A stretch of DNA of 35,661 nt, taken from positions 1 to 35,661 of the forward strand of contig CAIJYD010000099.1 in the NCBI GenBank assembly GCA_903824785.1. Direction: 5' to 3'. The translations under genes and the position numbers were made by a program. Shown here piece after piece: positions 8,822-14,515 of this stretch (position 1 is the first letter of the stretch; each line of letters starts with the position of its first letter). The stretch comes from an uncultured Bacteroidota bacterium. Lineage in GTDB: Bacteria; Bacteroidota; Bacteroidia; Bacteroidales; VadinHA17. Below the pieces are notes generated by a model. It saw only the letters and a program-made list of their open reading frames with translations, searched no databases and was not told where the DNA came from.

Positions 8822-9640
8822 TTATGATCCGTTTGCCGAATAAGAATGAGATGAGGCAGAATCTGAAAATGGATCAAGAATAGTATAACCGATAAAGAGG
8901 CAAATAATAATCACTGCGGCGGTTAATAGTATTTTTTTTACAAGCGTCATTTTTTCAATAGATCTTATTTCATCAGGATGCATCTCTTCTGCTCCTGCTT
9001 TTAATAAGAGTTCTCTCATTTCCGGTTTTTTCTTCATCCTGGCAAAATAGAGAGGGTTTATTTTGTTTCCGGCTTTATGGTTTATGTCAGCACCTCGATC
9101 TATTAAAACTTTTGCAATCGCTGTTGTTCCATACTCAATAGCATAAAATAGAGCAGTAAATCCCCTCTTGTCTTCGAGATTTATGGAGGCACCATAGCTG
9201 AGTAATAGTTTTACCATTCTTGTTGTACCAAAGCCAGCAGTATTATGTAAAGGATAAATATCTCTCTTCTGATTAGTATTGCACCATATTTCATTGGGAT
9301 TTATCCCTGCAATTAAAAGCAGCTCAGCCTTCTTGTAATCATTGATCAGTGAGTCGATTGTGTAAAAGATAAGGTTTTTTTGCTCATACCGGATATCCAT
9401 ATTCCCAAGCAATTTCAAAGCCTCCATCCTGGTAAGTTCCAGCTTCAGACCCGAATCATTATCAGCCCCATACATATTATCAATGACGGAAATTACTTTT
9501 TCCGGCATTTCAGCTTCTTGTTTCTCCACAACTTTTTTAAGCTGTGGTTTAAACAGATAAAATTTCTGTCTGGTAAATGATCCTGATTGATACGAATCGA
9601 ATAATCCGGATAGTTCTTTTGAAATTGTTAAGTCATTCAT
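8822..9640 (-). CDS. ankyrin-repeat protein with C-terminal membrane anchor
   Basis: With the ATG chosen here the protein has 272 residues. Residues about 101-218 hold ankyrin-type repeats (a degenerate one, then MVKLLLSYGASINLEDKRG, AKVLIDRGADINHKAG and MRELLLKAGAEE). A single membrane helix at about 234-255 is followed by a short Ser-rich tail, so the repeats should face the cytoplasm on a tail-anchored protein. Residues 1-100 are helical and unrecognised. The open frame runs 44 codons further upstream to 9772, but a strict promoter element (TAGTTTTG, 9738-9745) lies inside that extension and the extension enters the repeat block, so the shorter start is preferred. The extra N-terminal hydrophobic stretch would otherwise be a second membrane segment. 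Upstream lies a triple LytTR-type operator. Function unknown; ankyrin repeats bind proteins. Confidence 0.7.
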   Translation of the reverse strand: MNDLTISKELSGLFDSYQSGSFTRQKFYLFKPQLKKVVEKQEAEMPEKVISVIDNMYGADNDSGLKLELTRMEALKLLGNMDIRYEQKNLIFYTIDSLINDYKKAELLLIAGINPNEIWCNTNQKRDIYPLHNTAGFGTTRMVKLLLSYGASINLEDKRGFTALFYAIEYGTTAIAKVLIDRGADINHKAGNKINPLYFARMKKKPEMRELLLKAGAEEMHPDEIRSIEKMTLVKKILLTAAVIIICLFIGYTILDPFSDSASSHSYSANGS

Positions 9641-9737
9641 ATTCAAACTATTTTGTGAGTATTTAAATCCTGATAATAAAGTTTTCTGAAGATTAAACCT
9701 TTTTACTCCTAACCGAAAACTCAAAAGCAGTATTGAC

Positions 9738-9745
9738 AAAACTAC
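9738..9745 (-). promoter_or_regulatory. Bacteroidota -7 promoter element ahead of the ankyrin gene
   Basis: The minus strand reads TAGTTTTG, an exact TAnnTTTG match. It would give a leader of about 90 bases before the ATG at 9640. It competes with the conserved promoter-like segment at 9803-9810, which belongs to the repeat block shared with the lipoprotein gene. Confidence 0.4.
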
Positions 9746-9781
9746 TTCCGTCAGATTTAAAAAGCCGGTCATAGAAGCTGC

Positions 9782-9995
9782 AACTGATTTAAGTTCCCGC
9801 CATTAAGTTATAAAAAAATCAATCCTATCCTAGAAAAAATTTAAACGGGCGGTATTTCAGGATGAACGGTAACATCTGGTTAGTTAACGGGAAATGGAGG
9901 TAATATATTTCAGTATAATATCTCCTCATTTTTTCCGGATAGGCAATCATTTTCCTTACGCAAGAGAAAATGATTCTCCGAAAAAATGATTTTTA
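9782..9995 (-). repeat. duplicated non-coding block, copy A (upstream of the ankyrin gene)
   Basis: This block is homologous to copy B at 14299-14515. The best-conserved core is 9843-9899, which matches 14364-14420 at 53 of 57 positions without gaps. A second conserved stretch of 22 bases (9786-9807) matches 14308-14329 with two differences. The segments beyond the core (for example TTTTTTCCGG and CTCCGAAAAAATGA) are recognisably related but more diverged. Read on the minus strand, the order is core operator repeats, about 30 bases, a promoter-like TAACTTAA, then GCGGGAACTTAAATCA. In both copies the next minus-strand feature is a gene start. Confidence 0.8.
9841..9891 (-). promoter_or_regulatory. 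triple LytTR-type operator, copy A
   Basis: On the minus strand there are three 9-base direct repeats: CCCGTTAAC, ACCGTTCAT and CCCGTTTAA. Their CCGTT cores start exactly 21 bases apart (plus-strand AACGG at 9844, 9865 and 9886). The published LytTR operator is [TA][AC][CA]GTTN[AG][TG] twice, separated by 12 bases, which is the same 21-base period. The middle repeat matches 9 of 9 positions and the outer two 7 of 9. The conserved promoter-like TAACTTAA (9803-9810) lies about 30 bases downstream toward the ankyrin gene, a sensible position for an activator site. Confidence 0.65.
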
Positions 9996-10135
9996 ACCAT
10001 AATTTTCATCCGGCTTGAAATATAAATGCCCGGTTGTTTGAAGTATTTCCCTGATAATTGTGGAAGGGAATTACTACAAGGATTGAATTATTATTATTTA
10101 ATGATTTCAAAGAGCACAAAATTACTAACCAAAAC

Positions 10136-10348
10136 TTATGCCAGATTCATCAGATTTATACAAACTAATTGATGACCGTTGGTTAATCTACAGAAAATAT
10201 GTTTATTAACAGAAAATATTATTTCCCCGGAAGAAAGACAAATAATATTTCCCTGCTCAGATTGTACTTTTCTTAGTGAAAAAATCGCACATGTGTGCGG
10301 AAATGAGGTTGGAATTATAACATTGCAGCTGATGAAGATCGATGGCAA
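10136..10348 (-). pseudogene. possible remnant of a LytTR DNA-binding domain
   Basis: An open frame of 70 codons with only a TTG at its head. The C-terminal half (GNIICLSSGEIIF, then IFCRLTNGHQLV, then LMNLA) follows the strand pattern of the first part of a LytTR domain: hydrophobic strand, E-I-I-[FY], strand, L-x-NG, strand, L-x-x-L. The frame stops where the second half of the domain should begin, and no matching second half was found downstream. If correct, this is a dead piece of the regulator class whose operator pattern lies next to it. The resemblance is by eye and weak, and chance is a real alternative. The frame also runs over the conserved hairpin at 10286-10299. Confidence 0.25.
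10286..10299. repeat. small conserved hairpin motif, copy A
   Basis: CGCACA-TG-TGTGCG, an inverted repeat. On the minus strand it is followed by ATTTTTT, so it could act as a short intrinsic terminator for transcripts coming from the right, or as a protein-binding palindrome. Copy B has the related GCACA-AG-TGTGC at 14551-14562, also followed by a T-run on the minus strand. The distance to the operator core differs (387 against 131 bases), so the motif is conserved while the spacer is not. Confidence 0.5.
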
Positions 10349-10555
10349 AGCCTGAAACCCGTTATTCGCTATCGCTCATGTTCTCCCTCATCTCGCAAAC
10401 AGCGAACAGAATAACCCTCTTGCCTAGGGAGGTTGTTGAAGTTGTTTATTTTGGTGGCTTACAGGTTTTGCATAAAAACAAATATTAATGCATAAATTTA
10501 GATATTCTAAGAGGTTTCAGCGTAATATTAAATATGTGCCTATAATGTGCTCCAC

Positions 10556-10645
10556 CTATTTACCTAAAGTAAAGACATCCTGAAAAATAGAGTGAAGTGC
10601 TTCAATTTCATCATCCTTTAGCATATGATGGAAATTATTTTCCAT
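10556..10645 (-). CDS. small open frame, 29 residues, divergent from the Fic fusion
   Basis: ATG to TAG, reading MENNFHHMLKDDEIEALHS and continuing to FTLGK. Its first codons mirror the first codons of the longest Fic reading frame on the other strand (MEINYHNM), because both start inside arms of an inverted repeat. It has no recognised domain. It may be an antitoxin-like small protein, the broken front end of a lost gene, or a chance frame. Low confidence. Confidence 0.2.
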   Translation of the reverse strand: MENNFHHMLKDDEIEALHSIFQDVFTLGK

Positions 10646-10754
10646 TTATTTTATTTTGCTGGTAATTAATTGTGCATCCGGGACAGACTATTACTTTAAC
10701 TGGAAATTATTTGCTGCAAATTATCTAATATGGAAATTAATTACCATAATATGC
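10621..10754. promoter_or_regulatory. inverted repeat pair flanking the Fic control region
   Basis: The 25 bases at 10621-10645 and the 25 bases at 10730-10754 are inverted copies of each other with 22 of 25 matches, separated by 84 bases. Each arm is itself close to a palindrome: ATGGAAATTATTTTCCAT (7-bp arms, perfect) and ATGGAAATTAATTACCAT (one mismatched pair). The spacer holds another half-site, TGGAAATTATTTGC (10701-10714), and ATTTGC-T-GCAAAT. Repeated near-palindromes just ahead of a gene with an N-terminal winged helix suggest an operator for self-control. AT-richness makes chance matches easier. Confidence 0.45.
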
Positions 10755-10801
10755 CTCTTAATGGAATTTATTATCTATTTTTACAATATAATGCGCTTAT
10801 A

Positions 10802-12283
10802 ATGGAAAATATTTTACCTATCCACCTTCAGGAGATAATATTTGGTTCTTCAGATCCGAGAATCTCAAAACAAATTTCCAAACTTGAAAAAGGTGGTAAA
10901 ATAAGGAAGATTGCTCCACGCGTATATTCTTCTAACCTTACTGAACCAATTGAAGGAATAATAAGGAGAAACATTTTCCTGATACTTGGAAATCTTTATC
11001 CGGGAGCAGTACTGAGTCATCGTTCGGCATTTGAATTTCAACCCACAGAGGAAGGTCATATCTTTTTAACTTATTCCTATACTAAGAAGATCAGCTTGCC
11101 TGGGATTATATTTCGTTTCCTTTCTGGCCCCAAACCTATAAAAGGCGATAATGCAATTTCAGGTGAGTTGTATGCTTCTCAAAAGGAAAGGGCATTTTTG
11201 GAGAATCTTCAACCCTCTAAAAATATAAGTGGAAGTGCAAAGTGTCTGAAAATATCTCAGATAGAGGGTAAATTAGAGCAAATTATCAGAGTAAATGGGG
11301 AAGATGAAATAAACAAAGTAAGAGATCATGCAAAGATAATTGCAACAGAACTAGGAATGGAAAAGGAGTTCGAAAAATTAAATAAAATAATAAGCGCTTT
11401 GCTTTCGACTCATTCGTCAAAAATACTTTCCTCGCCGATTGCCCTGGCTAGAGCTTTCGGTTTTCCTTATGATCCCGCCAGGATGAAATTGTTCGAAGAG
11501 CTGTTCCGTAAATTGAAATCAAGTGAATTTAAGAACAGACCAGACAAAAACAGATCTGCTAAGTCCTTTCATAATTTTGCTTTTTTTGAGAGTTATTTTT
11601 CCAACTACATTGAGGGAACAGTTTTTGAAATAGATGAAGCAAAAAAAATTATTGAAACAAATAAGCCTTTGCCAACAAGGAATGAGGACAGCCATGATGT
11701 ATTAGGCACTTTTCATATTGTCTCCAATACCAGGGAAATGTCAGTAACACCACAGTCTCCTGATGAGTTTCTGAGTATTCTTGTGTACCGGCATAAAATT
11801 CTACTTATTGCACGACCGGAAAAAAGTCCTGGTCTTTTTAAAGACAAAAACAATTTTGCAGGAAATACCTCCTTTGTAGACTTTAATTTTGTAAAAGGGA
11901 CTTTGATACAATGTTATGATTTTTACAAATCTTTGGAACATCCATTCTCAAGAGCCGCTTTTATAATGTTTATTTTAAGTGAAGTGCATCCATTTCTTGA
12001 TGGTAACGGGAGAATTGCCAGAATAATGATGAATGCAGAGTTGACTTGTGCACATCAGTCAAAGATTATCATTCCAACAGTTTTCAGAGATGATTACCTT
12101 GGAGCTTTAAGAAAATTAACAAGACAAGGAGATTGTGATCCATATATTAAAATGTTGCAAAGGGCGCATGAATTCAGCGAAAATATTTTCGGAGATAACC
12201 TGAACGAAATGCAGGACTATCTTAAACAATGCAATGCATTCTCAGAGCATACTGAAGCCAGATTAATGATTATTCCAAGGTAG
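10802..12283 (+). CDS. AbiEi-like winged-helix / Fic AMPylase-type fusion protein
   Basis: Fic enzymes transfer AMP or other nucleotide moieties from NTPs to hydroxyl groups of target proteins. Numbering from the chosen ATG, the 493-residue protein starts MENILPIHLQEIIFG and has a winged-helix segment at about 8-50 (SDPRISKQISKLEKGGKIRK, then PRVYSSN), like the N-terminal domain of AbiEi-type antitoxins. An AbiEi-like region follows to about 175. The Fic core has the inhibitory helix motif SNYIEG (267-272), matching [ST]xxxE[GN], and the catalytic motif HPFLDGNGRIAR (396-407) with every key residue present. It should therefore be an active but self-inhibited Fic protein. The frame is open 24 codons further up to an ATG at 10730, but that ATG lies in a near-palindrome and a TATTTTTA promoter-like element sits at 10776-10783, so the shorter form is preferred. 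Targets unknown. Confidence 0.8.
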   Translation: MENILPIHLQEIIFGSSDPRISKQISKLEKGGKIRKIAPRVYSSNLTEPIEGIIRRNIFLILGNLYPGAVLSHRSAFEFQPTEEGHIFLTYSYTKKISLPGIIFRFLSGPKPIKGDNAISGELYASQKERAFLENLQPSKNISGSAKCLKISQIEGKLEQIIRVNGEDEINKVRDHAKIIATELGMEKEFEKLNKIISALLSTHSSKILSSPIALARAFGFPYDPARMKLFEELFRKLKSSEFKNRPDKNRSAKSFHNFAFFESYFSNYIEGTVFEIDEAKKIIETNKPLPTRNEDSHDVLGTFHIVSNTREMSVTPQSPDEFLSILVYRHKILLIARPEKSPGLFKDKNNFAGNTSFVDFNFVKGTLIQCYDFYKSLEHPFSRAAFIMFILSEVHPFLDGNGRIARIMMNAELTCAHQSKIIIPTVFRDDYLGALRKLTRQGDCDPYIKMLQRAHEFSENIFGDNLNEMQDYLKQCNAFSEHTEARLMIIPR

Positions 12284-12378
12284 TTTTAGCCCCGTTAGCA
12301 CCGAATTAAGACCTCATAATTAGAAAAAACGCCAGCACAGACCAGCTTTCTCCGGTACCGCCTGGCCATCTCACTTAA

Positions 12379-13137
12379 TTGATTGATAATAGTCGATTTA
12401 TAACCCTCGGATTAAGAACAAAAGGAGGATTTGTCGGGGAGCACGATCGCCAAACAGGTGAACCTATTCCTGAACATATTTCTGCTCGGGGGCAGGATCT
12501 GGAGACGCTATTGAATGGTTTAATTGAGACTTCTCTATTGTTGGAAAAAATTCAGTTTAATCCAGTCCTGACTGCTAGTAATATTGCATTTGGCTTTGTT
12601 TTTATTCATCCCTTTGAGGACGGTAATGGAAGAATTCATCGCTATTTGATACATCACTTGTTAGCGATAATGAAATATGCACCACAAGGAATAATCTTCC
12701 CGGTATCAGCAGCCATATTAGAAAAGTTAGACGATTATCGCAAAGTGCTGGAAATTTATTCACGACCCTTACTTGAATTTATTGAATGGAAAAAAACACA
12801 GGACAATAATGTTGAAGTTCTCAACGAGACTATAGACTATTATCGATACTTTGACGCTACATCGCAAGCTGAATTCCTGTTTGATTGTGTTAATTTTACC
12901 ATAAATAGGATAATTCCTCAGGAGGTTGAGTACCTGCAAAAGTACGATACATTGAAAGTCTGGTTGGATGATCGCTTTGAAATGCCAGACAAAATGGTAG
13001 CTATGTTAATTCGATTTCTTGAACAAAACAATGGGACATTATCAAAAATGGCACAGGAAAAGGAGTTTAAGGATTTAACATCCGAAGAAATAAAGAAGAT
13101 TGAAAAGAAGTATAAAATTATTTTCGAGAAGGAATAA
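12379..13137 (+). pseudogene. Fic-family gene lacking its 5' part
   Basis: The frame encodes the middle and C-terminal part of a standard Fic protein: RFITLGLRTKGGFVGEHDR, PIPEHISARGQDLETLL, then the active-site motif HPFEDGNGRIHR at residues 77-88. In full-length relatives a sizeable N-terminal region, which usually carries the inhibitory helix, comes before RFI. Here the frame starts with TTG immediately after an in-frame TAA, and the first ATG codon is residue 98, after the active site. The 50 or so bases upstream (about 12325-12375) are GC-richer and do not encode the missing part in any frame I read. The catalytic residues are intact, so a translated fragment would be an uninhibited Fic core, but a decayed gene is more likely. 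It is not a copy of the preceding Fic gene. Confidence 0.7.
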
Positions 13138-13440
13138 GAACCAATAATGATGCTATGAGTTAATATTAAGGTGTTTATGGCATATTCGATTGCTGCCCTT
13201 CAATCAACACTTTTCCTCAAAATTGTGAAAAAGTTTTTATTCGCTTGATATCAATACTTTCTAAATCACCGAAAATCCGGCCTTCTGAAAGGAGCTCAAT
13301 AACTGTGGCTGCTAATAGAATGGCTGCTGTGATCGTGAATATTTTTTTCACGGTCTTTACTGTTTTACTTCTCTGAGCTCGCAATCCCGTTTTTGAATTT
13401 GATCAATCATTTAAGTTTCAAAATTGTCGATTATGAACTT
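13138..13440. other. gap between the broken Fic gene and the lipoprotein gene
   Basis: About 300 bases. It holds the membrane-tail remnant at 13217-13351 on the minus strand and a short minus-strand frame, ATG to TAA, from about 13413 that reads MIDQIQKRDCELREVKQ just upstream of it in another frame. No terminator with a clear stem and T-run was seen after the Fic gene. Confidence 0.5.
13217..13351 (-). pseudogene. membrane-helix tail remnant resembling the ankyrin protein C-terminus
   Basis: A minus-strand frame headed by GTG reads VKKIFTITAAILLAATVIELL and then a polar tail to a TGA. The ankyrin protein has VKKILLTAAVIIICLFIGYTIL at the same place before its end. The preceding minus-strand bases read CELREVKQ in the next frame, comparable with DEIRSIEK ahead of the ankyrin protein's helix, with a frame change between. 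This looks like the decayed 3' end of an ankyrin-type gene. An independent 44-residue membrane peptide is the alternative. The resemblance of hydrophobic helices is weak evidence. Confidence 0.3.
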
Positions 13441-14101
13441 TTAATATCCTGAGAACTCAATACCTTTCACATTATAAGATGTAGTTGTTTGATACCCGCC
13501 CCCTAACCAATAATTTCCAACCATCTCAAATTTCCATTCTTTTGCATTGATTGGTGAAAATTCAATTTTATATGAATCTGACATTGGACAACTCAGATCT
13601 GATCTTACAGTTTGCAATTTCGGACAAGTATATGCACTGATCCATTGGCCGGTTCCATTCTTGTAGTATAAGTTACCCAGACAATTATAAGCAATGTCAC
13701 CAGGATAGTTACTGCATTTACCCTGCTTACAATTTGGAAATTCGTATGAAAACCTGAAGCCATCGATGGTTTTAGAAGTTCCAAAATCAAGATACATTAC
13801 CTTTGTATAAGTAGTAGAATAATATGACATTGATATTCCACCATTAGTTAAGAGGTTGTTATCCAATAAATTTTCAGGGGATGCAATCGTATTAGTTTCT
13901 GACGAATTTAACCATGATGTTTGACTTACTAACCAACCGGATGCCGTCGAATTGGTGATAAAACTTATTTCAGCTCCATAAGCTGTACCAACACTGATTG
14001 CGGCATAAGGCATCTCTGATGTCAGCTGTTGTGTCTTTGGTGCATCCATTAAATGTTGCTGTTGCAAGCAGCAGTAATGCGAGGAGAGTAGTGTTTTTCA
14101 T
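13441..14101 (-). pseudogene. discoidin-like lipoprotein gene interrupted by a frameshift
   Basis: The main frame (13441 to about 14030) encodes a domain with the look of a discoidin/F5-8C carbohydrate-binding fold: ENLLDNNLLTNGG, MYLDFGTSKTIDGFRFSYE, GQWISAYTC, a KEWKFEMVGNYW strand and a final VKGIEFSGY. Its own N-terminus has no signal. In another frame, an ATG at 14101 encodes a clean lipoprotein signal: MKNTTLLALLLLATATFNGC, then TKDTTADIRD, with Cys20 as the lipid-modified residue. That frame hits a stop after 43 codons. Removing one base between about 13995 and 14035 would join signal and domain into a protein of roughly 220 residues. So this is a surface lipoprotein gene with a one-base frameshift, a sequencing error, or a phase-type switch. 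Four to five Cys in the domain fit an exported protein. A LytTR-type operator lies upstream. Confidence 0.6.
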
Positions 14102-14298
14102 ATCTGTATCTGTTAATAAACCTGAAAAAATAGATTAATGAACCCTTCTGTTGGGTTATGATAAAATCAAAATATTCAAAAAGAAAATTATTGTATGTAA
14201 ATTGCCCCTTTATAAATGTTATCACGAAGTCCCCTGTTTATTCAAAACCATAATTGTCAAAACAAGTATGGTCAGTTTTTAAGTTTTCAGTCAATAAA

Positions 14299-14515
14299 AC
14301 TGCAAATGATTTAAATTCCCGCTATTAAGGTATTCAGAAAATCCATCAAACAAAAAAAAAAATAAACGGGCGGTATTTGATGATTAACGGTAACATCTGG
14401 TGAGTTAACGGGAAATGGAGTTTACAGTTTTCAGCAAAATATTTTTTCATTCTGTCCGGAAAAATCCACATTTCTCTTCAGTAATCGGAATTGTTTCTCT
14501 GAAAAAACGAAAAAT
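14299..14515 (-). repeat. duplicated non-coding block, copy B (upstream of the lipoprotein gene)
   Basis: Partner of copy A. Read on the minus strand it has the same order: triple operator, about 30 bases, promoter-like TACCTTAA (plus-strand 14325-14332), then GCGGGAATTTAAATCA. The operator-to-promoter distance is the same as in copy A within a base or so, although the bases between have diverged and include a long A/T run. That pattern of conserved sites with a diverged spacer suggests selection on the sites rather than a recent copy. Confidence 0.8.
14362..14412 (-). promoter_or_regulatory. triple LytTR-type operator, copy B
   Basis: The minus-strand repeats are CCCGTTAAC, ACCGTTAAT and CCCGTTTAT, with the plus-strand AACGG cores at 14365, 14386 and 14407, exactly 21 bases apart. 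The middle repeat matches the LytTR consensus at 9 of 9 positions, as in copy A. It faces the lipoprotein gene, whose ATG is about 260 bases away. Confidence 0.65.

Follow-up and report, generated by a model that had tools for sequence, protein, structure and literature searches.

The window analysed here comprises the 35,661 nucleotides at positions 1-35661 of contig C99 from an uncultured Bacteroidota bacterium of the VadinHA17 lineage (assembly of 4.69 Mb in 135 contigs, 97.8% complete). Its Fib_succ_major, Por_Secre_tail and LptD_2 proteins likewise point to Bacteroidota. It carries two copies, A and B, of a non-coding promoter block lying upstream of an ankyrin-repeat gene and a lipoprotein-like gene, respectively (Table 1). 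Each copy contains three nine-base direct repeats that form a predicted LytTR-type operator, and A and B are probably LytTR-type activator-dependent promoters, with a two-component system encoded on contig C106 as the most likely regulator. Hereafter, C-numbers (C17, C23, C30, C69, C73, C101, C106) refer to contigs of this genome and to the sites that they carry, G-numbers (G017, G085, G069, G074) to congeners, and L-numbers to extracted stretches.

Table 1. Features of the window related to copies A and B (positions of the window)
Feature	Position	Strand	Details
Duplicated non-coding promoter block, copy A	9721..9989	-	blastn; last part may overlap the ankyrin reading frame if its start is 9772
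Duplicated non-coding promoter block, copy B	14242..14510	-	blastn
Copy A, predicted triple LytTR-type operator	9841..9891	-	boxes CCCGTTAAC 9883-9891, ACCGTTCAT 9862-9870, CCCGTTTAA 9841-9849 (minus strand); 12-base spacers
Copy B, predicted triple LytTR-type operator	14362..14412	-	boxes CCCGTTAAC 14404-14412, ACCGTTAAT 14383-14391, CCCGTTTAT 14362-14370 (minus strand)
Predicted -7 element of A, TAACTTAA	9803..9810	-	30 bases past last box; no -33 TTG at the usual distance
Predicted -7 element of B, TACCTTAA	14325..14332	-	29 bases past last box; TTG 8 and 12 bases past the box
Predicted target of A, ankyrin-repeat protein	8822..9772	-	316 amino acids from ATG 9772, possibly ATG 9640; Pfam Ank_2, E 1.9e-27
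Predicted target of B, lipoprotein-like gene	13441..14101	-	sequence and frames

The duplication of the block, first proposed in a sequence-only reading of the window, is borne out by blastn, which aligns the two copies with 202 of 274 positions identical (74%, E 3e-42). As that reading had also claimed, both copies hold three direct repeats on the minus strand at an exact 21-base period, with a common 9-12-9-12-9 layout of CCCGTTAAC-N12-ACCGTT(C/A)AT-N12-CCCGTTTA(A/T), and in both the promoter-like element recurs, as does the GCGGGAA(C/T)TTAAATCA block. A motif scan located CCGTT-N16-CCGTT only at A and B within the window, twice per copy and on the minus strand. The core identity, announced as 53/57, is 52/57 over 9845-9901 and becomes 53/57 once the frame is shifted by one base; the flanks share 149/212 positions (Fisher p = 0.0009 for 52/57 versus 149/212). 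The middle box of each copy fits the quoted LytTR consensus, [TA][AC][CA]GTTN[AG][TG], at nine of nine positions, as stated there, and the outer boxes, which have C at position 1, fit at seven of nine (eight for the third box of B).

That A and B belong to a wider family, as had been supposed, was confirmed: the genome contains ten matches. With copy A as query, BLAST returned eight places at E < 1e-3, A and B included, and a sequence-only model built from six copies and run on this genome and 61 congeners found ten places in this genome, namely the six source copies together with C17:50733, C106:45560 (E 2e-5), C23:1057 and C73:75722 (E 0.04). A triple-box pattern with free spacers, allowing up to three mismatches in the letters that count, matched seven times in this genome and never in the 61 congeners, its reversed control giving no match in any of the 62. 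The family thus appears confined to its own species among the genomes searched, and A and B are not chance occurrences. With up to three mismatches, three boxes separated by two 12-base spacers are found at A, B and five other sites, two of which (C69 and C30) are devoid of the middle GTT, while the remaining three of the ten sites are cut or eroded and fall outside the three-box pattern.

No match at E 0.001 was obtained by BLAST in 59 relatives (35 from the same genus, 24 from the same order), the weak matches of the model in seven of the 61 congeners (E 0.01-0.04) were not counted as sites, and a scan of GTDB species contigs, a set that may not include this genome, gave one match, in a metagenome-assembled genome of Gammaproteobacteria. 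Three bare CCGTT cores with at most one mismatch were not above control across the genus; the zero-mismatch matches are four of the own sites, a site in G017, one in G069 and a 7-base tandem repeat in G074, where the 7-mer CCGTTTA (G074:C224:3685-3766) mimics boxes spaced by 21 bases. A two-box pattern with up to two mismatches added no clear site to those of the own genome: zero mismatches gave five family sites, one mismatch none, and two mismatches 16 places, some of them family sites, versus 15 in the control.

Regarding the genes behind the sites, those encoding FISUMP domains (Fib_succ_major, PF09603), of which the genome has 32 matches, are the main target of the predicted operators. 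Five of the ten sites precede such a gene (C17:7325, C106:43236, C69:91888, C17:50733 and C73, the last in front of an 895-amino-acid fn3/FISUMP gene). The C30 site lies about 490 bases before a 161-amino-acid protein with a Por_Secre_tail domain, and the C106:45567 site precedes a PAS histidine kinase gene. As half of the sites precede FISUMP genes, the ankyrin and lipoprotein-like genes, from which the proposal of a targeted family of membrane or surface genes was drawn, are atypical members. The lipoprotein-like gene has no Pfam match; in addition, its signal-peptide frame (ATG 14101) stops, and the 208-amino-acid main frame (13441-14067) lies in a different frame, so that the gene is either broken or mis-sequenced. 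Scans reaching 1500 bases each way from the domain at 30 of the 32 FISUMP matches, by which the starts of long genes are partly covered, detected no site beyond those listed; a weak triple devoid of TAnnTT (L038:15728) and pairs with TAnnTT inside open reading frames (ORFs; window 24752 and L038:9962) were taken as chance.

Because A, B and the FISUMP copy on C106 have their leader in common while their genes are unrelated, and because no congener examined has the sites, we tentatively propose, at somewhat less than even confidence, that a LytTR regulon was born within one species by dispersal of a cassette before ankyrin, lipoprotein, FISUMP and sensor kinase genes. As C17b keeps the right half of the core and C23 the left half, a recombination site was also considered; it was dropped because a deletion explains these halves: C23 runs into a FISUMP-like coding remnant, and C17b into an upstream sequence of another kind. 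A conserved block upstream of genes could moreover encode a structured leader or another RNA element. This possibility, to which we give almost no credence, was rejected: consensus pairs are absent, six folds of three copies are no better than shuffles (z -0.80 to 1.06), no Rfam match falls on the block in the seven sources searched, and the predicted start site is located downstream of the block.

The link to LytTR proteins arises from contig C106. Ten LytTR domain matches confirm that the genome encodes such regulators, and one of them has two triple sites in its own gene run. More precisely, a response regulator (Response_reg and LytTR domains), a Reg_prop/Y_Y_Y/His_kinase protein, a triple site, a PAS kinase, a second triple site and a FISUMP gene follow each other on one strand, the first site (C106:45567-45617, hereafter C106b) starting 12 bases past the kinase gene of the regulator pair and the second lying 2.3 kb further on. 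The boxes of C106b read CCCGTTAAT twice (boxes 1 and 2), then CCCGATAAA, and are kept although its first spacer has only 4/12 letters in common with C17a, a tendency expected of direct repeats bound as units. That such a divergent copy keeps its boxes immediately behind a LytTR two-component pair supports the LytTR reading. The arrangement is distinct from a LytTR Regulatory System (LRS), in which the regulator is paired with a membrane inhibitor: at C106 the Response_reg/LytTR regulator is followed by a sensor kinase.

Direct repeats spaced by 21 bases beside promoters are also bound by AraC-type activators, as in the hybrid two-component systems of Bacteroides, and another regulator family of this kind might use the sites. 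This seems very unlikely, as the identity between repeats 1 and 2 of C106b is essentially limited to the 9-base box instead of forming two patches per repeat, and as the same boxes are found before LytTR operons.

Downstream of the boxes, a promoter of the Bacteroidota type, whose -7 consensus is TAnnTTTG, is predicted at a nearly constant distance. Counted from the end of box 3, TAnnTT starts at +29 in B, at +30 in A, C106, C106b, C69 and C73, and at +31 in C17a and C17b, that is in eight of the nine sites scored, compared to 6-14% expected per site in shuffles. In addition, a TTG occurs 7-10 bases past the box in seven of the nine sites. About 90 bases ahead of the C69, C30 and C73 sites stands a further element, TGGCAC-N5-TTGG (L040:7798 (+), L041:8131 (-) and L103:1421 (+)); we take it to be sigma-54-like, and a second promoter may therefore exist at these three copies.

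The same combination of boxes and promoter was then sought in 62 LytTR stretches. These were drawn from 55 of 81 places in relatives and from eight own stretches that carry the remaining nine LytTR genes; neither the C106 locus nor the repetitive L185 is included. A box matrix trained only on own-genome sites and run on the non-coding parts gave, at the loosest threshold, 18 pairs at spacing 21 versus a mean of 6.7 at other spacings (standard deviation 3.1, maximum 17), and nine versus 2.1 at threshold 13. TAnnTT stands at exactly +29 in 10 of the 18 spacing-21 pairs versus 2.5% of 200 pairs at other spacings. Seven of these ten, from six congeners and the own C101, precede an ORF of 602-665 amino acids followed by one of about 254, and the other three an ORF of about 160. 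The operon of G017, the only one for which Pfam was run, encodes TPR/His_kinase and Response_reg/LytTR proteins and has three boxes, ACCGTTGCT, TCCGTTAAC and TCCGTTAAC. Spacers are partly common in relatives too (TCAAAACNGCAA). The fact that a matrix trained on the own sites finds 21-base pairs before LytTR operons, mostly those of congeners, again supports the LytTR reading. Unbiased 9-base direct repeats also peak at spacing 21 (81 versus 5-53 at others), a peak that was not relied on because tandem repeats in L160, L185, L186, L207 and L220 inflate the counts. Besides, at a LytTR locus of one congener, two box pairs lie on opposite strands, each with TAnnTT at +29 (L195:1112 (+) and L195:4749 (-)), and box pairs stand before ORFs of 157-161 amino acids at LytTR loci of three species.

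Several observations weigh against this reading. Regarding the promoter, C30 has no TAnnTT at +29 to +31, and a -33 TTG is missing at the expected distance in A and C106b. In the LytTR stretches, spacing 14 nearly equals spacing 21 (17 versus 18 pairs at the loosest threshold, 7 versus 9 at threshold 13), and, when coding sequence is included, spacing-21 pairs are not denser there (82 per 1.06 million strand-bases) than in 87 other loci (80 per 0.71 million), although sites of the family itself and loci chosen by a box pattern are among the latter. In these whole stretches, TAnnTT at +29 to +31 follows 12 of the 82 pairs, and 14 of the 80 from the other loci, where 11 rows are family sites and three correspond to the two ORF places named above. 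Regarding the sites themselves, C69 and C30 have lost the middle GTT, box 1 is absent from C17b, C23 breaks off within the site, and C73, an eroded copy, reaches only E 0.04. The second spacer of C106b still has 8/12 letters in common with C17a and, in the six full copies, the boxes are barely more conserved than the spacers (0.29 versus 0.33 bits) and conservation follows no 21-base rhythm; recent copying, or contacts made elsewhere than in the boxes, may account for this. Finally, the middle box, said in the sequence-only reading to fit at all nine positions, has the best consensus match in A and B but is the least conserved across these copies.

The similar conservation of boxes and spacers, together with the half-sites and eroded sites, would also suit a block without regulatory role, either the decaying remains of FISUMP gene duplications or a dispersed repeat of non-coding DNA; the five sites preceding FISUMP genes point in the same direction, as does a sixth, C23, which adjoins a remnant resembling, by eye, the FISUMP N-terminus of C69. 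Nevertheless, conservation ends sharply at the operator of about 60 bases while the flanks diverge, the TAnnTT spacing is kept in divergent copies and the same grammar precedes LytTR operons elsewhere, which makes such a remnant improbable.

The identity of the regulator is less firmly established than the nature of the boxes. C106 is the most likely of the ten LytTR proteins, although no triple site was seen upstream of the gene of its regulator, and although the stretches read around the two clear orthologues of the latter (57% identity, in G017 and G085) are devoid of such sites, the downstream part of G085 being off the contig. The latter absence also favours, as a real but distinctly lesser possibility, LytTR operators that serve another of the ten proteins, for instance the conserved C101 kinase/LytTR pair, which is itself preceded by two boxes at 21-base spacing with TAnnTT at +29 and whose congeners have boxes (CCGTTAAC, CCGTAAAC) resembling those of the window. 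However, C101 has no triple site, as against two in the gene run of C106, and its boxes (ACTGTCAAC, TCCGTTGAT) are less like those of the window than the C106 boxes are.

With C106 as the preferred regulator, the three 9-base boxes, with their 21-base period, would lie on one helix face and be bound side by side by several LytTR response regulators, most likely of the C106 type in phosphorylated form. The bound regulators would recruit RNA polymerase to the Bacteroidota-type promoter, whose -7 element is predicted 29-31 bases past the last box, thereby activating a small regulon that comprises genes for exported or surface proteins, mainly FISUMP, and for a PAS histidine kinase. Operator, promoter and leader may have been copied as one cassette before unrelated genes, here the ankyrin and the lipoprotein-like gene.

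That the operators form a LytTR-type family of known kind is well supported. The comparison with published systems draws on PMC6193735 and PMC11347149. LytTR promoters with paired repeats, those of S. mutans HdrR/BrsR and other LRS operons, have the 9-12-9 arrangement upstream of the promoter that is found here, and LRS-type operons have ACCGyTtAT-like boxes similar to those of the window, the Bacteroides examples carrying a -7 element given as TATCTTTG (PMC6193735). In the latter, a box pair is followed by 11 bp, TGTx, 19 bp and TATCTTTG (PMC6193735, Table 3); the box predicted in B. ovatus, ACCGTAAATCA, is nearly identical to ACCGTTAATCA of copy B, and the predicted layout is alike (PMC6193735). 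In contrast to LRS operons, the sites described here have three boxes and FISUMP surface genes as targets, and the LytTR protein encoded closest to them is a response regulator paired with a sensor kinase, where LRS operons have a membrane inhibitor (PMC6193735).

The sequence-only reading had called a triple site unusual. This is correct insofar as LytTR sites usually come in pairs, but triples have already been published for RcoM and CoxC (PMC11347149, the only work on LytTR sites with three direct repeats found in our literature search). Like the present sites, the RcoM and CoxC operators comprise three repeats with 12-13 base spacing and are LytTR-bound, binding being reported there and predicted here, and all three repeats are needed for efficient binding of CoxC (PMC11347149). 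Their boxes differ (TTCNNGCA, TTNNNGCN); RcoM and CoxC are one-component carbon monoxide sensors, and CoxC acts as a repressor, its site overlapping the -35 box (PMC11347149). Closer to A and B are the kinase/LytTR operons of congeners with CCGTTAAC-like pairs, which have the 21-base period, CCGT(T/A)AA boxes and TAnnTT at +29, but usually two boxes (three in G017), located at the regulator's own operon and not at surface genes.

In the light of these comparisons, the regulon, the triple sites in a two-component setting and a promoter grammar common across the genus look new. The literature search returned nothing on regulation of the FISUMP family, and no title or abstract on the regulon described here; the published Bacteroides LytTR operators considered here are predictions (PMC6193735). 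The present data provide a testable operator grammar, with boxes like [ACT]CCGTTAA at 21 bases and a -7 element at +29 to +31, which is found again ahead of LytTR operons in a genus represented here by draft genomes, and the predicted regulon ties a LytTR two-component system to FISUMP surface proteins.

Some observations on the neighbouring genes may be added. Three of the ten sites have a related PAS kinase, in one case a fragment, directly upstream (L039:8367-10508, L043:1265-3670 and L041:8270-9022), in a recurring order of kinase, operator and surface gene; such a kinase or fragment stands upstream of the C23 and C30 sites. In the window, two Fic-domain genes are located between A and B on the plus strand (10730-12283 and 12379-13137), the match of the second to the Fic profile starting only at position 24 of 93.

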